From positions 21,629 to 85,628 of the forward strand of contig NZ_NHPJ01000092.1 in assembly GCF_002252985.1 (NCBI RefSeq): a stretch of 64,000 bases of DNA, in the 5' to 3' direction. The notes beneath the pieces are model-generated. The model was not told the DNA's origin, did no database searches, and was given only the letters and a program-made list of their open reading frames with translations. Shown here in pieces: positions 38,173-50,870 of the stretch. Both the position numbers and the translations under genes were made by a program. The first letter of the stretch is position 1. Each line of letters begins with the position of its first letter. This DNA comes from Halorubrum halodurans. Its GTDB lineage: Archaea; Halobacteriota; Halobacteria; Halobacteriales; Haloferacaceae.

Positions 38173-39633
38173 ATGTCGACCCTTCTTCGATCGGTTTTTT
38201 CAATCTTTTCAGGAAGATTGGCCAATATTCTGATAAGTCTGGGATTCACTCCGATACTGGTTCGGATCGTTTCTCAAGAACAGTACGGATTATACGTCAG
38301 CGTACTCGCCGGGTTCTCGATCTTCGCTCTTCTCGCCAAAGGAGGACTGTTCGATGCGAGTCGAAAGATCATCGCCGAGAACATCAAAGATCAAACAAAA
38401 ACGTCAGAGATCGTCTCAATATCTATGCTAATAAGTGTCGGATATGGGATCACTGCGGTGTCGATCGCTGCGATCGGGCTACGAGCCGAAGTAGTTCCGT
38501 CTCGTTACGTCCCATTCGTGTGGATTCTGCTGTTAGCGGTGGTTTTTGAAAATATCTTTAGTATCGTGAGAGGCACCTTCTATGGACAACAGCGGGAACA
38601 CGTGGCTGAAATTCTCAACGTCGGAAGACGGATTTTCTACGTGGTTATTGGGTTGAATCTGGCGTATATTGGGTATGACCTGATCGGGCTATTCGCTGCT
38701 TATAGCGTATCCTTCATCGTTGTTGGAGTGGTTGGGATCTTATATATTCTCAGACATTTCGAGTTCTCAGTCCCTTCCATCGAGAGCATCAAGAGACACG
38801 GACGAGAAGTAGCAACGTTCGGAGGGTTTCAGTTGATCGGAGGACTGAGTGCGGCCTTCTTGTATAAGGCGGATATTCTCCTCGTTGAGTACTTTCGAAC
38901 GTCCACGGCGACTGCGCTATACAACAGCGCGATCGTACCCGCTGAGATGATCTGGTTCATCCCGTCCGTCATCCAGCTTGCGTTCTTACAGCAGACTGCG
39001 AACCTCTGGGCGGAGGATGACATCGAAGGAATAAACGACCAGATCCGAACCGGGATCAAATACAGTATACTGGCCCTAACGCTGTTCGGTGTCGGTCTGT
39101 TCGCTCTCGCTGAACCGTTTCTCCAAGTCTACTTCGGCGAGAACTACGTTGCTGCCACTTCGACGTTGCGATTGCTCATCTTAGGAACGTTCTTTTTTGG
39201 AATCACTCGAGTGGTTGTTCCTGTCTTCCAGGCAACCGGGTGGGTGAGACATACGGAACTGATGACTGTCGGAGCTCTCCTACTCAACGTTCTGTTGAAC
39301 GTCGCTTTGGTCCCTCGTTATGGGATCATCGGTGCGGGGATCGGAACGTCGATATCGTACGTCATGCTGTTCGTCGGAAACGTCTGTATCTGGCTTTCTT
39401 CCCCATTCGAAGTGGTTTCACTCCGATGGATCACTCCACTCGTGCTTGCCCAGGGAGTATTCGCCATCGTGTTCTTCGCGACTGTGTTCAGCGTTGAGGT
39501 CTCACCATTGATCTCTCTGCTTGTGTTTCCGCCTTTGGGATTTGTGCTATTCATCGGGATCAACGTCGTCTTCGGACACATCCCGATACAGGAATTCCGA
39601 TCTCATGTCAGTACAGTCGTGAAGCGATTCTGA
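38173..39633 (+). CDS. oligosaccharide flippase family protein
   Basis: A 486-residue polysaccharide-biosynthesis (MOP superfamily, Wzx/RfbX-like) membrane protein with about fourteen helices, expected to move lipid-linked glycans across the membrane. Typical parts are the N-terminal NILISLGFTPILVRIVSQEQ, GGFQLIGGLSAAFLYKADIL and the mid-protein EPFLQVYFGENYVAA. G+C is clearly below the core genes. It opens a run of same-strand glycan genes ahead of two glycosyltransferases, fitting a variable N-glycan or surface-polysaccharide island. It could be the AglR-type step, but this is not certain. Confidence 0.88.
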   Translation: MSTLLRSVFSIFSGRLANILISLGFTPILVRIVSQEQYGLYVSVLAGFSIFALLAKGGLFDASRKIIAENIKDQTKTSEIVSISMLISVGYGITAVSIAAIGLRAEVVPSRYVPFVWILLLAVVFENIFSIVRGTFYGQQREHVAEILNVGRRIFYVVIGLNLAYIGYDLIGLFAAYSVSFIVVGVVGILYILRHFEFSVPSIESIKRHGREVATFGGFQLIGGLSAAFLYKADILLVEYFRTSTATALYNSAIVPAEMIWFIPSVIQLAFLQQTANLWAEDDIEGINDQIRTGIKYSILALTLFGVGLFALAEPFLQVYFGENYVAATSTLRLLILGTFFFGITRVVVPVFQATGWVRHTELMTVGALLLNVLLNVALVPRYGIIGAGIGTSISYVMLFVGNVCIWLSSPFEVVSLRWITPLVLAQGVFAIVFFATVFSVEVSPLISLLVFPPLGFVLFIGINVVFGHIPIQEFRSHVSTVVKRF

Positions 39634-39726
39634 GACGGAAAGTCGAGATTGAGGTATCACTCCGATCGCCATTCACAATCTATAACAACAGCTGCTTACG
39701 GATTAGTACATAGGCGAATTTGGGAT

Positions 39727-40932
39727 ATGGAACAGTTAGGAATCTTGTACTACGTTGACTCATTTCCAAAATTATCAGAGAGTTTCGTTCTAAACGAAAT
39801 AAGTGAACTCACACGCAGAGGACATGAGGTCGCTGTGTTCGCTCTGAAGGATCCGGGAGAGCGCACTACCCATGAGGAGTACGAAGATCTCGACGTTCCA
39901 GTCTACTATGGGAACGTCTCGTACACCGATTTCTCGGATCTATTTTCACGGAAAACCCTCAGGATGGCGACAGAGCACGTAACCGGCGGTCTCTTCACTC
40001 GACTTTCCTCTAAACAGGTCGGACATAACTTGTTATTAGGACGCCGATGTTCGGAGTTCATCGAGTTACTCGAGTTTAATATCGACATCATTCACGGCCA
40101 TTTCGCGAATCCCAGCAGGATTGGTGAAATGCTTGCTGCGAGACATCACGACATCCCATGTACGGTTACGGCTCATGCCGTTGAAATATTCAAGAAACCA
40201 AACGTCAGCCGAATACGCTACATCTGTGACGGGATGGATCACGTGATCGTTCCATCGGAATACAATCGTCGATACCTGCGCGAGGAGATTGGAGTACAGA
40301 ACGGTATCACGGTCGTTCCCGCGACATCACGGGTCGAAAAGTTCGAACCATCCGAACCCACAATCGAGAATAGACTCCTGACTGTCGCTCGATTAGTAGA
40401 AAAGAAAGGATATCCGTTCGCGATCGAGGCGGTAAACCATCTGGTCGAACAGGGATACGATATCGAATATCATATCATTGGAAGTGGAGACCAAGAGGAG
40501 CAACTACAACAGAAGGTGAAGAAACACGGTGTCGAAGATCACGTTGAATTTCTCGGGCATGTTTCGGACGAAACGTTGCGACGGGAATTAAGTGAAGCCT
40601 GCGTCTTTTTGCTCCCCTGTATCGTTGCCGAAGACGGTGATCGGGACGCGATGCCCGTCGCACTGAAAGAGGCGATGGCGTCTGAAACAGCATGTGTCTC
40701 AACGACAGTATCCGCCATACCAGAACTCATCACAAGTGGACATGATGGTCTACTCGTATCCCCAAGGAGATCCGGAGAATTAGCAACGGCTGTCCAAGAT
40801 CTTCTTGAAGACGCTGAAACGAGACGGAAAATAGCACAAAACGGACGAGATACGGTTCATACGAAGTTCGATATAAGCGACTCGGTGGATACGCTGTTAG
40901 AAGTGCTTGAGTCGTGTGTATGTTCTTCATAG
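39727..40932 (+). CDS. glycosyltransferase family 4
   Basis: A 401-residue GT-B retaining glycosyltransferase. The N-terminal half starts MEQLGILYYVDSFPKLSESF, a motif of GT4 enzymes of colanic-acid/exopolysaccharide type. The C-terminal half carries LLTVARLVEKKGYPFAIEAV, the nucleotide-sugar region and the E-x7-E-like DRDAMPVALKEAMASETA. It should add a sugar to a lipid-linked or free glycan; donor and acceptor are unknown. The ATG at 39727 is favoured over an upstream ATG at 39649. It lies 93 bases after the flippase. Confidence 0.88.
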   Translation: MEQLGILYYVDSFPKLSESFVLNEISELTRRGHEVAVFALKDPGERTTHEEYEDLDVPVYYGNVSYTDFSDLFSRKTLRMATEHVTGGLFTRLSSKQVGHNLLLGRRCSEFIELLEFNIDIIHGHFANPSRIGEMLAARHHDIPCTVTAHAVEIFKKPNVSRIRYICDGMDHVIVPSEYNRRYLREEIGVQNGITVVPATSRVEKFEPSEPTIENRLLTVARLVEKKGYPFAIEAVNHLVEQGYDIEYHIIGSGDQEEQLQQKVKKHGVEDHVEFLGHVSDETLRRELSEACVFLLPCIVAEDGDRDAMPVALKEAMASETACVSTTVSAIPELITSGHDGLLVSPRRSGELATAVQDLLEDAETRRKIAQNGRDTVHTKFDISDSVDTLLEVLESCVCSS

Positions 40933-41468: not shown

Positions 41469-42404
41469 ATGAATGGACGAACCTATGAAAATCCGATTGT
41501 AAGTATTGTTATTCCAGTTTACGAGCAACCTGACCTTCTAGTTGATGCTCTCAACAGCATCTCCAGGCAGACCTTTGATAATTACGAAGTGTTAGTTGTA
41601 GATGATTCGTCAAAGGAGAAATTCAAACCGATCATCGACAAGTATGATGACCGAGTTCGCCTTCTCACCCACGATGAGAATAAAGGTGCTGCTGAAGCTC
41701 GAAACACAGGTATCAATGTTGCTCGTGGTGAGTTTATCGCGTTCCTCGACGCTGACGATACGTGGGATCCAACGAAGTTAAAGAAACAGCTCAGGGAGTT
41801 TGAGAAGTCCGACAACTATCTCGGCTTAGTATACACTGGATTTGTACAGTACGAACTTGATGGAACCGAGTGGAAACGATACCCGGAGGCAAGTGGTGAC
41901 ATCTACATTGAAGAATTGGAACGCGATCGCATCCATCCAACGTCGACAGTGATGGTTCGTCAAGAATGTCTCGATCATGTCGGTGGATTCGATTCATCTT
42001 TACCGAGCCGCCAAGACTACGACCTCTGGATCCGCATCACGGAACACTATGAAGTCGGCCAGGTCGACGAAATTCTTGTCGATAAACGCGAGCAACCGGA
42101 CAGCATTTCGAAGGACTTCGAGAGTAGAATCAAAGGAGATCTCGCAGTGTTCGAAAAAGTCCAGAAACGGGCTGGTGATCTGGATCTCTGGACGCGCAAT
42201 CGAATCCTTTCGTACCACCATCACGTCATCGGGCGCGACTACGAATCAAACGACGATCGATTGCTAGCTCTGAAACATCTCGGACTCGCAATTCTGCGGT
42301 ATCCTGCGAGGCCATTTTCCTGGGTGATGTTTGTCATCGCATTACTGGGGATCAATAGAGATGGATGGTTGCTCACTTTCGTGAAAAGATACATTCGAGA
42401 ATGA
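41469..42404 (+). CDS. glycosyltransferase family 2
   Basis: A 311-residue GT-A enzyme. The nucleotide-sugar-binding start is NPIVSIVIPVYEQPDLLVDA, the DxD-type motif is AFLDADDTW near residue 98, and the acceptor-side acidic motif is PSRQDYDLWIRI. No strong membrane anchor exists except a weak hydrophobic C-terminal segment (FSWVMFVIALLGI). Low G+C, within the glycan island. It is convergent with the GT4 at 42424. Confidence 0.88.
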   Translation: MNGRTYENPIVSIVIPVYEQPDLLVDALNSISRQTFDNYEVLVVDDSSKEKFKPIIDKYDDRVRLLTHDENKGAAEARNTGINVARGEFIAFLDADDTWDPTKLKKQLREFEKSDNYLGLVYTGFVQYELDGTEWKRYPEASGDIYIEELERDRIHPTSTVMVRQECLDHVGGFDSSLPSRQDYDLWIRITEHYEVGQVDEILVDKREQPDSISKDFESRIKGDLAVFEKVQKRAGDLDLWTRNRILSYHHHVIGRDYESNDDRLLALKHLGLAILRYPARPFSWVMFVIALLGINRDGWLLTFVKRYIRE

Positions 42405-42423: not shown

Positions 42424-43593
42424 TCATGAATTCGTCTCATATTCGGAAAACCATTCAGGAGTAATATCGGCTTCATCCATCACACGCGAAACTACATTTC
42501 TCATTTTACTGTGAAATGTATCTACTGAAAACCGATCGGCGAAGGTCTCAATCATTTCAGCGTCCCAGTCAATTCCTTCCATTTCGAACTGTTGAGTGGC
42601 CTTACGAATCGTCGCACCAGTTCCATCACGTTTGAAGGTGTATCCGTTTTTCCCGTTGATGACTTGGTACTGCGTCATTCCCTCTTCGACACCGAGCAAC
42701 GGAGTTCCCGCGGCGAGTGCTTCGACGGGAGAGATTCCAAAGTCTTCGTCTTGACCGTTGAACACGAACGCCTTCGCTCCGGCAAGTAGTTCTCGCTTAT
42801 CAGCCTCACTGACGTACCCAACGAACTCGACGTTATCGTCCGCGATCGATTCCAGTTTATCCCGTTCCGGCCCGTCTCCAGCGACGATCAATCTAGCATC
42901 AAGGTCGTCGAACGCACGGACGATGTCCTCCACGCTTTTGTGCCAGTCCAGTCGAGAGAGCGTGAGGTAGTAGTCTCTCGTCTCTGCGTCGTCGAGTGAG
43001 TACTTGTGCGTGTCCACGGGAGGATAGACGACATCAATTTTCTCTTCGGGGATTCCCCAGTATCGAACCATCCGGCGTTTCACCTGCTCGGAGTTGGCCA
43101 CGAACTGATCGGGTTTGTGAGTGTTGTGATCGAAGGTGACTCGAACCGCGTAGTAGAAGAGGAGCTTCAACAATGGGATTTTACCGCGTCCGACCTGGTC
43201 GATCTGGTCGGATTGTCGGCGGTTCGTATGATGAATGTAGGCGATCCAAACTTGCTCGGTCGGTGGAACGTAGAACAGTGGCTCGTTCCCGCTGGTCACG
43301 AGCACGTCGTGGTCACGGAGGGGCTCAGCAATTTGCCACCCGAGCAAATGGGACAACATTCGTGTGACGCCACCTCGCTGGAGCGCCCACTCGTTCAGAC
43401 AACCGTTGATCAACTGCTCGGCGTCGATATCGTCAGGTTCGATTGCTTCGTCTCGCCACCCAACGTACAGCGGTGCGTCCTCGAACGCCCGTACGAGCTC
43501 CCAGGCAACGCGGTCCCCTCCACCGTTGACGTGTTCTCCCCAATGCGCGATGGCAATATCATCGCTACCCGACGGAAGAGGATCATCACTCAT
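42424..43593 (-). CDS. glycosyltransferase family 4
   Basis: A 389-residue GT-B glycosyltransferase. The N-terminal half has HWGEHVNGGGDRVAWELVRAF, an acceptor-side Gly-rich loop. The C-terminal half has YYLTLSRLDWHKSVEDIVRAF and LIVAGDGPERDKLESI, and the E-x7-E region is DFGISPVEALAAGTPLLG. It differs from its GT4 neighbour at 39727, so the two probably add different sugars. It lies on the opposite strand, with the decayed IS directly upstream. Confidence 0.88.
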   Translation of the reverse strand: MSDDPLPSGSDDIAIAHWGEHVNGGGDRVAWELVRAFEDAPLYVGWRDEAIEPDDIDAEQLINGCLNEWALQRGGVTRMLSHLLGWQIAEPLRDHDVLVTSGNEPLFYVPPTEQVWIAYIHHTNRRQSDQIDQVGRGKIPLLKLLFYYAVRVTFDHNTHKPDQFVANSEQVKRRMVRYWGIPEEKIDVVYPPVDTHKYSLDDAETRDYYLTLSRLDWHKSVEDIVRAFDDLDARLIVAGDGPERDKLESIADDNVEFVGYVSEADKRELLAGAKAFVFNGQDEDFGISPVEALAAGTPLLGVEEGMTQYQVINGKNGYTFKRDGTGATIRKATQQFEMEGIDWDAEMIETFADRFSVDTFHSKMRNVVSRVMDEADITPEWFSEYETNS

Positions 43594-45727: not shown

Positions 45728-46666
45728 TTATCTATTCGCCTTCTCAACGAGATCTGGAGTCACCACCGCGTACAAGTATCCCAGCCCGACTGCCCCGGTG
45801 AACGCGCCGATCGCCGCCAGCTGCGTCACTGCGGCCACGGAAGGGGACCGGATCAATCCCTCCACCCGGCGTGGTACCCTGTCCGTCAGCAACCACTTCA
45901 GATAATCTCCCTTGTCGTCGGGCGCATCCGGATACAGCAGGTCCATCACGCGCTTCGAATACCCCTGCCAGAACGACCGGAACAATAGCCAACGGAATTC
46001 CCCTCGATACTCGAACAAGGTGTGGTGGACGACCGCGGCCTCGGTGAACATCATCCCCTTCCCGAACTCCTCTAACAGACGAATCCCCACCGGCGCTTCG
46101 TGCGCTTGGAGGTGTTTGTCCCCCTTCCGTCCGGTGTTCGGATCGTAGCCGCCGACCGCCAGGAACTTCCCGCGACGGTACGAGATGTTCGACCCGTACG
46201 TGTTCCGGACCTCCTCGCCGTCCTCGGCGAAATCGGGCTCGACACAGCCGACGAGCCAGTAGAACTCCTCGGGGAAGAAGTTCGGACGGTCACCCTGCCA
46301 GTTCGGTCGCACGTCCCCGCCGACCGCGATCGCGTCGGTCGTCTCGTACACCTCGACGAGCGACTCGATCCAGTCGCTCTCCGCCACGCCATCATCGTCG
46401 ATGAACGCGACGATCTCTCCGGACGCCAACTCCGCGCCCTTCGTCCGGCTGTAGGAGATCCCGCGGTTCTCCTCATTGTCGTGGATCACGACGCTCTCGC
46501 GGTCGCCGAAGTCCGCGACCGTCCGTTCGTACACCTCGGGGTTCCCGTCGATCACCAACACGACCTCGATCGGGTCGTACGTCTGAGAAAGCGCGCTCTC
46601 GACGGCCTCCGTGAACACGTCGTAGCGGTCCATCGTATACGTACAGACGACGACGGAGACCTTCAT
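45728..46666 (-). CDS. aglG: GT2 glucosyl-dolichyl-phosphate glucuronosyltransferase AglG-like
   Basis: A 312-residue family 2 glycosyltransferase close to haloarchaeal AglG, which in Haloferax volcanii adds a hexuronic acid to dolichol-phosphate-linked sugar in N-glycan assembly. Visible features are VSVVVCTYTMDRYDVFTEAV at the N-terminus, the metal-binding IVAFIDDDG near residue 92, GSNISYRRGKFLAVGGYDP and a C-terminal hydrophobic segment, AAIGAFTGAVGLGYLYAVV, that could anchor it in the membrane. It is divergent from aglB, 102 bases away, and its base composition already resembles core genes. Confidence 0.8.
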   Translation of the reverse strand: MKVSVVVCTYTMDRYDVFTEAVESALSQTYDPIEVVLVIDGNPEVYERTVADFGDRESVVIHDNEENRGISYSRTKGAELASGEIVAFIDDDGVAESDWIESLVEVYETTDAIAVGGDVRPNWQGDRPNFFPEEFYWLVGCVEPDFAEDGEEVRNTYGSNISYRRGKFLAVGGYDPNTGRKGDKHLQAHEAPVGIRLLEEFGKGMMFTEAAVVHHTLFEYRGEFRWLLFRSFWQGYSKRVMDLLYPDAPDDKGDYLKWLLTDRVPRRVEGLIRSPSVAAVTQLAAIGAFTGAVGLGYLYAVVTPDLVEKANR

Positions 46667-46768: not shown

Positions 46769-49700
46769 ATGAGCGAACGAACGGATACCGCCGAGGAGGA
46801 CGAGAGGTCCCCGCTCGTCCTCCTCGAACGCTGGTACCACGTCCCAGCGATCGCGGGCGTCTTCGCGTTTATGTTGTGGACTCGACTCCGATCGTACGGC
46901 AACTTCGTCCGTGACGGCGAGGTGTACTTCCGGGGGAACGACCCGTGGTACCACCTCCGGGAGACGAGCTATCTGCTCGAGAACTGGCCGAACACGCTCC
47001 CGTTCGACCCGTGGACTGGGTTCCCCTTCGGTAACCAAGCTGGACAGTTCGGGACCCTCTGGGACCACATCATGGCCGTCGGCATCTGGGTCGCCAGCCC
47101 GGTCATGGGTGGCCCGGAGGAAGTCATGCTCGTCATGGCTCCGATCGCCGGGGCACTCGTCGCGGTTCCCACGTTCTTCATCGCGCGCCGGTTCGTCGAC
47201 CGTCCGGCCGCCCTCGTGTCGTCCGGCGTGCTCGCGCTCCTCCCGGGCACGTTCTTCAGCTACTCGCTGGTCGGGTTCCCCGACCACAGCGCCGCCGAGG
47301 TGTTCTTCCAGTCGGTCGCCGTCCTCGGGTTCCTCGTCGCCTTCGCGGTCGCGGAGCGTGACGCACCCGTCTGGGAGCTCGTCGTCGACCGCGACTGGGA
47401 CGCCCTCCGCCGACCCGCCGCGTACGCCGCGGCCGCGGGCGTCGCGCTCGGCCTCTACATCTGGACGTGGCAGCCGGGGATCCTGATGGTCGGGTTCACC
47501 GGCGTCTACCTCGCGGTCAAGATCACGAGTGACACGTACCACGGCAGGAGCCCGGAACCGATCGCCTTTGCCGGCTCCGTCGCGATGGCCGTTTCGGGTC
47601 TGATGCAGGTGATCCCTCTCGACACGTTCTCGTTTCAGGTGACGGACTACTCGCTACTCCAGATCGTCCTCCCGCTCGGCGTCGCCGCGGGAGCGGTCTT
47701 CCTCGCGTGGCTCGCCCGCCAGTGGGAGGCGCGCGACGACCTGACTCCCGGCACCTATCCGGCGGCCGTCGGCGGCCTGATCGTCGCCGCCGCCGGCTTC
47801 CTCTGGCTGGCGCTTCCGTCGCTGTGGTCGACGCTGTCGAGCAACCTCCTGAACTTCGTCGGCTTCAGCGCCCGCGCCACGTTCCGCACCATCGGCGAGG
47901 GGCAGCCGCCGCTTCAGAACGCCTCCTTCGCCGACTTCGTCCTCGGCCAGTACGGGCTCGCCTTCTTCCTCGCGCTCGCGGCGGTCCTCTACGTCGTCGC
48001 GCGTCCGCTCTACCGCTCCGACGACCCGAACCACACGCTGTACATCCCCGCGGCGCTCGCCGTCGTCGGCTCCGTCTACGCGGTCCCCCAACTGTACGAC
48101 GCGATCGGCGGGCTCGTCGGCGTGAGCTGGCAGGTGGTCGGACTCGTCATCGCGGCGGGGTTCCTCGTCGGCGCGACGTTCCTCGTGGAGTACGACGCCG
48201 AGGAGCTGTACTTCGTCGTGTGGGCGGCGTTCATCGGGAGCGCCGCGTTCACGCAGAGCCGCTTCAACTACTACCTCGCGGTGGTCGTCGCGGTCGGCGC
48301 GGCGTACTTCCTCCAGGTCACCTTCGACGCGATCGACCTGGGATCGCTCGACGCCCTCCGCGAGATCGAGGGGTGGCAGGTGTTGACCGCGCTCGCGGTG
48401 CTCGCCGTCCTCCTCGTACCGCTCGTGGGCGTCGCCACGCCGGTGTGGACCGCGGGCAACTCGACCGGGCCGGGCAGCGTCGTCGAGTGGGACGAGAGCC
48501 TCCAGTGGATGAACGAGGAGACGCCGCATCCGGGCGAGCTCGAGGGCGCCGACAATCCGATGGAGTACTACGGCACCTACGAACGACCCGACGACGGCGA
48601 CTTCGAGTACCCGGAGGGCGCCTACGGCGTCCAGTCGTGGTGGGACTACGGCCACTGGATCACCACCCGCGCGGAGCGGATCCCGAACGCCAACCCGTTC
48701 CAGCAGAACGCCGCCGAGGCGGCGAACTACCTGCTCGCGCCGAGCGAGGAGGCCGCACGGGAGGTGCTCGCGGGCCAGAGCACGGAGGGCGAACACACCC
48801 GGTACGTGATGGTCGACCGCCAGATGGCCTCGCCGAACTCCAAGTTCGGCGCGCCGGTCACGTTCTACGACGCGGGCAACGTGACGCGGGAGGACTTCAA
48901 CCGCGTCCTCTATCAGCAGACCCAGCAGGGCGGGTTCGGCACGGTGATGCAGGTGAACACCCAGCGCTACCACGAGAGCCAGATGATCCGGCTGTACGAA
49001 CACCACGGGAGCGCGGTCGAGCCCGAGCCGGTCGTCGTCGACTGGGACACGCAGGCGGCCGAGACGGCGGGCGGCGAGCAGGTCGAACTCGCCGTGCTGC
49101 CGGAGGATCCGAGGACGATGATCCGGCAGTTCGAGAACGTCTCCGCGGCCCGTGAGTTCGTCGAGGAGGACGGGAGCGCGCAGGTCGGCGGCGTCGGGGG
49201 GCTCCCCTCCGAGCGCGTCGAGGCGCTCGAACACCACCGGCTCGTCCACGCCACCGAGTCGCAGGGACGCTCCGCCTCCGCGGGACAGGTGGGCGTGCTC
49301 CAGCAGCTCGGCGTGAACTTCCAGGACGTCCTCGGCGAGTCGGCGCTGGCCGCGTTCCGTGACGACTGGGTGAAGACGTTCGAGCGCGTCCCCGGCGCGA
49401 CGATCGAGGGGAGCGGCGCGGAGCCCGGCGAGGAGGTCCGAGCGACGGTGGAGATGGAGAAACCCTCCGGCGCGACCTTCGAGTACACGCAGTACGCGAC
49501 CGCCGACTCCGACGGGCACTTCGAGTTCACGGTGCCGTACTCGACGACGGGCTACGACGAGTTCGGTCCCGAGGAGGGGTACACGAACACGAGCGTGCGG
49601 GCGACCGGGCCCTACGAGGTCACGACGGGAACGACGACCGACGAGGACCTCTACACGACCCGGAGCGTCGGGCAGGTCGAGGTCACGGAGGCACAGGTGA

Positions 49701-49873
49701 TCGGCGAGGACGACGCCGCCGCGACCGTCGAACTCGAGGAGGAGATCGTCGACTGTCCCTCGGGCGATCCCGAGTGTCCGGTCGGTGACGGCTCGAGCGG
49801 CTCCGGGGACGGCGGGACGAACGAGTCGAGCGGCTCGCTCGCCGCGTCCGACCGCGTCGCCGTGGCCGCCTGA
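46769..49873 (+). CDS. aglB: archaeal oligosaccharyltransferase AglB
   Basis: The 1034-residue STT3-family enzyme that transfers the glycan from dolichol phosphate to Asn in N-x-S/T sites of S-layer and other surface proteins. The N-terminal ~590 residues hold about thirteen membrane helices with the first external acidic motif, FRGNDPWYHLRET (~55-67). The catalytic WWDYG motif is at residues 624-628, followed by HWITTRAERIPNANPFQQNA. The C-terminal domain is outside and ends with a Ser/Gly-rich segment. It is the key enzyme of the adjacent glycosylation island. The stop lies 6 bases before a DUF368 gene. Confidence 0.95.
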   Translation: MSERTDTAEEDERSPLVLLERWYHVPAIAGVFAFMLWTRLRSYGNFVRDGEVYFRGNDPWYHLRETSYLLENWPNTLPFDPWTGFPFGNQAGQFGTLWDHIMAVGIWVASPVMGGPEEVMLVMAPIAGALVAVPTFFIARRFVDRPAALVSSGVLALLPGTFFSYSLVGFPDHSAAEVFFQSVAVLGFLVAFAVAERDAPVWELVVDRDWDALRRPAAYAAAAGVALGLYIWTWQPGILMVGFTGVYLAVKITSDTYHGRSPEPIAFAGSVAMAVSGLMQVIPLDTFSFQVTDYSLLQIVLPLGVAAGAVFLAWLARQWEARDDLTPGTYPAAVGGLIVAAAGFLWLALPSLWSTLSSNLLNFVGFSARATFRTIGEGQPPLQNASFADFVLGQYGLAFFLALAAVLYVVARPLYRSDDPNHTLYIPAALAVVGSVYAVPQLYDAIGGLVGVSWQVVGLVIAAGFLVGATFLVEYDAEELYFVVWAAFIGSAAFTQSRFNYYLAVVVAVGAAYFLQVTFDAIDLGSLDALREIEGWQVLTALAVLAVLLVPLVGVATPVWTAGNSTGPGSVVEWDESLQWMNEETPHPGELEGADNPMEYYGTYERPDDGDFEYPEGAYGVQSWWDYGHWITTRAERIPNANPFQQNAAEAANYLLAPSEEAAREVLAGQSTEGEHTRYVMVDRQMASPNSKFGAPVTFYDAGNVTREDFNRVLYQQTQQGGFGTVMQVNTQRYHESQMIRLYEHHGSAVEPEPVVVDWDTQAAETAGGEQVELAVLPEDPRTMIRQFENVSAAREFVEEDGSAQVGGVGGLPSERVEALEHHRLVHATESQGRSASAGQVGVLQQLGVNFQDVLGESALAAFRDDWVKTFERVPGATIEGSGAEPGEEVRATVEMEKPSGATFEYTQYATADSDGHFEFTVPYSTTGYDEFGPEEGYTNTSVRATGPYEVTTGTTTDEDLYTTRSVGQVEVTEAQVIGEDDAAATVELEEEIVDCPSGDPECPVGDGSSGSGDGGTNESSGSLAASDRVAVAA

Positions 49874-49879
49874 TCCGGG

Positions 49880-50824
49880 ATGACGGACGTCCGGGAGTGG
49901 ATCGCGATATATCTGAAGGGCCTGGCGATGGGGACCGCGGATGCGGTTCCCGGCGTCTCCGGCGGCACCATCGCGCTGGTCGTCGGGATCTACGAGCGGC
50001 TGATCGCGGCGGTGACCGCGATCGATCCCGACCGGATCGCGCGGGTGCTCGCCGGGGTTCGAGCGAGCGAGCGTCCGGACGCGCGGGCCGCGTTCCGCGA
50101 GGTCGACGGCGGGTTCCTCGCCGTCCTGGGCGCGGGGATCGGCACCGCGGTCGTGCTCGTGTTGAGCCTCGTCGACGGGCTCCTCGCGGCGTTCCCCGTG
50201 GCGACCTACGGGTTCTTCTTCGGGCTGATCGCCGCCTCCGCGGTCGTGCTCTACGGGGCGGTCGACCTGGCGACGACGGGCAGGAAGGCGGCCGCGGTCT
50301 GCGGCTTCCTCGCGGCGTTTCTCGCGTCGGGGTACGCCGCGACCGCGCTCGGCCACGCGCTCCCCGTCGTCTTCGTCTCGGGGGCGATCGCGGTCAGCGC
50401 GATGGTCCTTCCGGGCCTCTCCGGATCGCTTCTCCTCGTCGTCCTCGGCCAGTACGAGTTCATGTCGGGGACGCTCGCCGCGTTCCTCGACGGGATCGCC
50501 GCGGCGGCCGCGGGCGAGGGCGCCGCCGGGATCACGGGGGCCGTTCCGACGATCGTCGCGTTCCTCGCCGGCGGGGTCGTCGGGCTGTTCACGATCGCCC
50601 ACGCGGTGCGCCGCGCGCTCGAGGCCGCCCGCGCCGCGACGCTCGCGTTCCTCGTGAGCCTGATCGTCGGCGCGCTGCGCGCGCCGGTGATCGAGGTCTC
50701 GATGCGGCTCGCCGACTCCGGCGAGACCTGGGCGAGCGCGTTCCCGCGGTTCGCGGCCGCCGCCCTCGTCGGCGCGGTCGCCGTGATCGCCGTCGACCGG
50801 CACGCGGGCGTGCTGGAGTACTGA
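49880..50824 (+). CDS. DUF368 membrane protein (polyprenyl-phosphate translocase family)
   Basis: A 314-residue integral membrane protein with about eight to ten helices. The DUF368 signature is the N-terminal YLKGLAMGTADAVPGVSGGT, echoed in the second half by SAMVLPGLSGSLLLVVLGQY, an inverted-repeat pattern. Bacterial DUF368 proteins (PopT) are implicated in returning undecaprenyl phosphate to the inner leaflet. Here the gene begins 6 bases after aglB, so a role in recycling the dolichol phosphate that AglB releases is attractive (inference). The C-terminal codons overlap a 23-bp tandem repeat. Confidence 0.88.
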   Translation: MTDVREWIAIYLKGLAMGTADAVPGVSGGTIALVVGIYERLIAAVTAIDPDRIARVLAGVRASERPDARAAFREVDGGFLAVLGAGIGTAVVLVLSLVDGLLAAFPVATYGFFFGLIAASAVVLYGAVDLATTGRKAAAVCGFLAAFLASGYAATALGHALPVVFVSGAIAVSAMVLPGLSGSLLLVVLGQYEFMSGTLAAFLDGIAAAAAGEGAAGITGAVPTIVAFLAGGVVGLFTIAHAVRRALEAARAATLAFLVSLIVGALRAPVIEVSMRLADSGETWASAFPRFAAAALVGAVAVIAVDRHAGVLEY

Positions 50825-50870
50825 ACGCGGGCGTACTGGAGTACTGAACGCGGGCGTGCTGGAGTACTGG
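50802..50870. repeat. three tandem 23-bp repeats over the DUF368 stop
   Basis: Units start at 50802, 50825 and 50848 (each beginning ACGCGGGCGT and ending GGAGTACTGA or GGAGTACTGG). They differ at single positions. The first unit encodes the DUF368 C-terminus and stop. Copies two and three are downstream and noncoding. The 23-bp length is not a multiple of three. Confidence 0.9.

Follow-up and report, generated by a model that had tools for sequence, protein, structure and literature searches.

The subject of this analysis is a pair of genes found within a 64,000-nucleotide stretch of the genome of Halorubrum halodurans (hereafter the window), namely aglB, which encodes the archaeal oligosaccharyltransferase, and the gene of the DUF368 family (PF04018) that follows it on the same strand (Table 1). 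In a profile search, the 1034 amino acid product of aglB scored 913.7 bits against TIGR04154, well past the curated cut-off of 450, and it was also above the cut-offs of PF02516, PF22627, and PF18079. Residues 624–628 of this protein, encoded from base 48638, read WWDYG, which we take to be the motif known by that name in STT3/AglB proteins. The DUF368 open reading frame (314 amino acids) begins six bases past the aglB stop codon, as a first-pass annotation of this DNA had reported, and it is the one PF04018 gene in the whole genome (G000, contig C12). The GC content of the two genes is 69% (aglB) and 74% (DUF368), both high like the rest of the window. A scan of their junction for sigma-70-type promoters and terminators, a model unsuited to archaea, returned no promoter-like site.

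The linkage of the two genes was then surveyed among 116 evenly drawn genomes of Halobacteria, with positions taken from matches to PF04018 (present in 115) and TIGR04154 (present in all 116). DUF368 was scored as directly downstream where it lay on the same strand with less than 1 kb between the profile ends. This arrangement was found in 76 of the 116 genomes, while in a further four DUF368 follows aglB with a gap above 1 kb yet below 3 kb. The adjacent pairs span 30 of 45 genera and eight of nine families, and all sampled genomes have the pair adjacent in 27 genera. The distance from stop to start, obtained for 75 of these pairs, ranges from −4 to 152 bases with a median of 6; it is 30 bases or fewer in 46 pairs and the genes overlap in 17. 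For the 76th pair no in-frame start was found by script, and by eye the ATG of DUF368 overlaps the stop codon of aglB. No fusion of AglB with DUF368 was seen among 80 linked loci. Scoring of neighbors at 79 of the linked loci placed aglB before DUF368 in 77 and aglM in two, with an AglG-type cluster upstream of aglB in 33; the commonest gene following DUF368 was common to only 12 loci, all from one family. The adjacency of aglB and DUF368 exceeds chance, because 76 of 116 genomes share both order and strand while the other neighbors turn over. The control for this statement is local, consisting of neighbor turnover at loci that were themselves selected for linkage, scored with a crude gene caller that failed in low-GC loci.

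The DUF368 protein is a member of PF04018 (E 6.7e-57 over residues 17–268, gathering cut-off 26 bits), a family whose current Pfam name is undecaprenyl phosphate translocase-like and which is also described as VCA0040-like. Its two halves are homologous (hhalign of residues 1–130 against 150–314, probability 98, E 1.9e-13, 114 columns), a feature of many transporters, and in an alignment of 86 archaeal sequences both halves carry invariant PG-x-SG motifs. The AlphaFold model is nearly all helix, with a mean predicted local distance difference test (pLDDT) score of 92.7 and a predicted template modeling (pTM) score of 0.86. A sequence search for a solved fold gave nothing relevant and Foldseek returned no matches at E ≤ 0.001; the best structural match (VIA) had a Z of 8.6 and a root-mean-square deviation of 3.0 over 114 residues, a range common for helical models. 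In one gene omitted from the DUF368 alignment A2, found outside Halobacteria (genome G473, L141 3117–4190), a segment of ~67 residues around the second PG-x-SG motif is duplicated in tandem within the protein.

Table 1. Features of the aglB–DUF368 locus and its surroundings (positions in the window).
Feature	Position	Strand	Basis
Wzx/Polysacc_synt-type flippase, candidate outward transporter of loaded carrier	38173..39633	+	PF01943 62.6 bits, PF03023 39 bits
Glycosyltransferase (Glycos_transf_1)	39649..40932	+	PF00534 124.6 bits
Glycosyltransferase family 2	41469..42404	+	PF00535 120 bits
Glycosyltransferase (Glycos_transf_1)	42424..43593	-	PF00534 87.5 bits
AglG-type glycosyltransferase, divergent, upstream of aglB	45728..46666	-	NF041394 496 bits, cut-off 440
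aglB, archaeal oligosaccharyltransferase, archaeosortase-A-associated subfamily	46769..49873	+	TIGR04154, PF02516, PF22627, PF18079
Spacer from aglB stop to DUF368 start, TCCGGG, 6 bases	49874..49879	+	Sequence
DUF368 / PF04018, candidate PopT-type polyprenyl-phosphate translocase, copy A	49880..50824	+	PF04018 193.3 bits, tree, AlphaFold model
First half-repeat motif of DUF368, PGVSGGT	49949..49969	+	P24, G25, S27, G28, T30 invariant in 86/86
Second half-repeat motif of DUF368, PGLSG	50411..50425	+	P178, G179, S181, G182 invariant in 86/86

Published work offers a role for such a protein. Bacterial DedA and DUF368 proteins have been implicated in bringing undecaprenyl phosphate back into the inner leaflet (PMC9876793, PMC12826051), in line with the bacterial link to undecaprenyl-phosphate translocation drawn in the first-pass annotation. 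Furthermore, the DUF368 homolog of Haloferax volcanii can stand in, at least in part, for vca0040 in a Vibrio cholerae mutant with impaired growth under alkaline conditions (PMC9876793); residue-level data on DUF368 were not found in the available part of that paper. Haloferax builds its N-glycans on dolichol phosphate (PMC3871713). AglB should therefore release the monophosphate, which is what a translocase of this kind would accept, with no need for a pyrophosphatase. Of the two products previously suggested for AglB, dolichol phosphate and dolichol pyrophosphate, the former is favored by this pathway and by the AglG-type glycosyltransferase of the window, which passes the equivalog cut-off for glucosyl-dolichyl phosphate glucuronosyltransferase (NF041394); nothing in this analysis supports the latter.

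It is therefore proposed, with a probability of roughly 0.7, that DUF368 is an archaeal PopT-type translocase that, once AglB has transferred the glycan, takes dolichol phosphate from the outer leaflet back to the inner one. The substrate, direction, and coupling of the protein in this organism are what we infer, as is the step from linkage to function. Under this proposal, glycosyltransferases would load dolichol phosphate on the inner side of the membrane, the Wzx-like flippase would turn the loaded lipid outward, AglB would move the glycan to asparagine and free dolichol phosphate outside, and DUF368 would bring it back in, allowing a small carrier pool to be reused. If AglB and DUF368 were made from a single transcript, release and return of the carrier would be matched. 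Approximately 13 kb of the window carries candidates for all of loading, outward flipping, transfer, and return. DUF368 could conceivably move another anionic lipid, or move a dolichol-phosphate-linked sugar outward and be tied to AglB in that way, given that bacterial members have been assigned mainly by genetics and antibiotic-binding data (PMC12826051) and the archaeal substrate by inference. This is improbable, however, as outward flipping already has a candidate in the agl island of the window, the Wzx/Polysacc_synt flippase, and as the Vibrio protein for which the haloarchaeal homolog can partly substitute is assigned to bringing the carrier back inward (PMC9876793).

The haloarchaeal DUF368 genes fall into two groups that differ in their linkage to aglB. 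A tree was built from 120 proteins (121 strong matches in the 116 genomes, minus that of G055, which is one of 41 unlinked loci; weak PF04018 fragments in G074 and G090 were dropped), and this tree, like the outgroup tree described below, came from a quick search with support from the SH-like approximate likelihood ratio test (SH-aLRT) only. Thirty-five genes form a clade, here called clade B (SH-aLRT 98; loci L091–L129 except L094, L097, L098, and L100). The 85 genes outside it are called copy A; 80 of these are in the aglB locus and five are unlinked. Three of the five adjoin aglM directly (G030, G048, and G095, all of genus g2), and in a fourth g2 genome (G014) aglM, on the same strand, separates aglB from DUF368. 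It lies between them also in G078 and G113 (genus g6), on the opposite strand. AglM of G078 scored 747.9 bits against an NCBIfam equivalog with a cut-off of 670, and the other aglM genes were found by tblastn with this protein. In total, 83 of the 85 copy A genes are at or next to an agl gene. Five genomes have both copy A and clade B (G005, G025, G044, G091, and G107) and one (G016) has two clade B genes.

In the outgroup tree, all haloarchaeal DUF368 proteins form one clade (SH-aLRT 100), within which clade B joins the copies of family f1 (SH-aLRT 100). On this grouping, the linkage looks ancestral and clade B looks derived, via duplication or transfer within the haloarchaea. Horizontal gain from bacteria was also considered and is unsupported, the haloarchaeal clade standing apart from the five bacterial sequences included. 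One position separates the groups: arginine 267 is found in 96% of 50 copy A sequences and in 84% of 19 sequences from Halobacteriota other than Halobacteria, and in clade B it is mostly proline (65% of 17). Judged from the alignment, it is possible that this substitution marks an altered function in clade B.

A number of observations weigh against DUF368 as the translocase serving AglB. The two genes are unlinked in 35 of the 116 Halobacteria genomes. All 35 clade B genes are unlinked to aglB; their neighbors are unrelated (a MutS2-like ATPase, a deacylase, or in some a glycosyltransferase gene), with no glycosylation neighbor common to them. One genome (G021) carries AglB without DUF368, as checked also with a family-specific profile. 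At the protein level, the scores against the NCBIfam PopT equivalogs NF052563 and NF052564 were 78.7 and 161.4 bits. With both below the cut-off of 400 bits, the protein was classed as a member of PF04018 and not as a bacterial PopT equivalog. DedA proteins, the proposed alternative recyclers, were found in all 10 haloarchaea checked and could take on part of carrier return. Outside the Halobacteria, the control genomes of M. jannaschii, S. acidocaldarius, and M. acetivorans have matches to STT3 and none to PF04018. Of 246 evenly drawn Halobacteriota genomes, 76 carry DUF368: 42 of the 43 from Halobacteria and 34 of the remaining 203. All of these 34 have STT3, and in none of them is it directly adjacent to DUF368. 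Similarly, DUF368 is present in 126 of 151 Methanobacteriota genomes and was close to STT3 in none of the 44 that were searched for STT3, which were picked mainly for low contig numbers. The haloarchaeal AglB queries were run on 100 loci with flanks of at most 8 kb, and a distant STT3 may be missed. DUF368 is not obligatory for AglB/STT3, since G021 and some other archaea carry the latter without it.

The loci without linkage were inspected for other candidates. No substitute transporter next to aglB was recognized in 35 aglB loci lacking a linked DUF368, and the genes after aglB there are mostly unrelated and in convergent orientation. In G021 (L255 10720–11490), aglB is followed by what was read by eye as an AbrB-type regulator and PIN/VapC-type toxin pair. 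Four of the five DUF368-less genomes (G187, G205, G306, and G381) are also without STT3; this co-absence was given no weight because the genomes are 88–95% complete and the genes are usually neighbors, so that a missing contig explains it. Among methanogen-type Halobacteriota, STT3 and DUF368 share a contig and strand in four genomes of family f30, at 13–16 kb from each other (seen in loci L139, L142, and L144), which was rejected as too distant. In L142, DUF368 is preceded by an apparent nucleobase permease and a uracil phosphoribosyltransferase, both read by eye, and ORFs of similar size occupy this place in L139 and L144.

A second arrangement of STT3 with DUF368 was found in another phylum. 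DUF368 is present in 33 of 194 Thermoplasmatota genomes, 17 of which also have an STT3 match, and in six of the 33 the genes lie in a tight run on one strand, prs-STT3-AMMECR1-pyrC-DUF368-IMPase (names other than STT3 and DUF368 come from reading the proteins of locus L157, not from a family search). The housekeeping genes in this run are a further point against a specific bond between the two. Together with the loss of linkage in about a third of haloarchaea, the mixing in of unrelated housekeeping genes could be taken to mean that the order of aglB and DUF368 is simply inherited, with no functional bond. This is very unlikely, as eight families keep the linkage, with the DUF368 start overlapping the aglB stop or only a few bases past it, despite turnover of the flanking genes, and as the Thermoplasmatota arrangement is found in a separate phylum. 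The functional link that had been suggested from the single operon is thus supported by the census within Halobacteria, but it does not extend to archaea in general. It is a feature of one DUF368 lineage in haloarchaea and of a group of Thermoplasmatota, and elsewhere AglB exists with no DUF368.

The Methanobacteriota, the phylum of Methanorudis, build a pseudomurein wall on a polyprenyl-phosphate carrier, and the presence of DUF368 there fits a role in carrier recycling. DUF368 may be a general recycler for all work done on dolichol phosphate (N-glycans, single-sugar donors, and exopolysaccharide), its place beside aglB reflecting co-regulation with the biggest user instead of an exclusive partnership. 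The chances of this are put at about even; it is a broader form of the proposal of return after AglB transfer, and the two confidences overlap. The near-universal presence of DUF368 in Halobacteria (386 of 391 genomes in a profile search of the class), its retention when unlinked, the many genomes in which clade B is the sole DUF368, and the Methanobacteriota in which it occurs with no STT3 link all agree with general recycling, whereas the persistence of 80 of 85 copy A genes in the aglB locus, though nearly all other neighbors change, argues for a closer tie. In a narrower and rather doubtful version of that tie, AglB and copy A would be a dedicated pair with direct handover of dolichol phosphate, perhaps as a complex, and clade B would be an unlinked general recycler in lineages losing copy A.

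Upstream of the pair, a GC-poor island (36.9–45.4 kb) has a GC content of 51%, compared to about 71% for the parts of the window that precede 36.9 kb or follow DUF368, taken as one. It has a DDE transposase gene at each end, contains the Wzx-like flippase and three glycosyltransferases, and is perhaps a swappable glycan cassette adjoining a stable, high-GC aglB–DUF368 pair. Directly downstream of DUF368 is a methylmalonyl-CoA mutase gene, whose cluster occurs in this place in just 5 of the 79 scored linked loci. The 3′ end of DUF368 is covered by three tandem copies of a 23-base unit (50802–50869, 95% matches). The stop codon of the gene lies inside the first unit, and because the second has an identical stop codon, slippage in this repeat would hardly alter the end of the protein.

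When compared to known systems, the protein belongs to the same Pfam family as the PopT/DUF368 transporters, which include VCA0040 of V. cholerae and an S. aureus homolog. Unlike bacterial PopT, it has an oligosaccharyltransferase as its partner gene and scores below both equivalog cut-offs, and the haloarchaeal carrier is dolichol phosphate. The UptA/DedA flippases, which have likewise been proposed to bring undecaprenyl phosphate inward in bacteria (PMC12826051), are a separate family (PF09335). Of the Haloferax volcanii Agl pathway (AglB, AglM, AglG, and AglR), AglB and an AglG-type glycosyltransferase are found here and AglM is at the locus in some relatives. The available part of the account of that pathway (PMC3871713) showed no step by which dolichol phosphate is brought back, nor was a DUF368 gene seen in that of the published Halorubrum lacusprofundi cluster, Hlac_1062 to 1075 (PMC10384203). 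For the latter species an in-frame deletion of aglB has also been published (PMC10384203).

Already in print (PMC9876793) are the DUF368 family and its role in bacteria, its occurrence in Halobacteria, and complementation across domains. The literature searched, to which the text of Roney & Rudner on polyprenyl-phosphate transporters did not belong, contained no paper naming DUF368 with AglB. The abstract of that work reportedly cites syntenic analyses, and the archaeal linkage may already have been printed there, leaving priority uncertain. New here are the count of the linkage, its tight spacing, the division of DUF368 into a linked and an unlinked lineage, the genomes with aglM as an intermediate, and the six-gene run of Thermoplasmatota. 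In the literature searched, no protein is assigned to bringing dolichol phosphate back after archaeal N-glycosylation, and the linkage of DUF368 to aglB makes this step testable.

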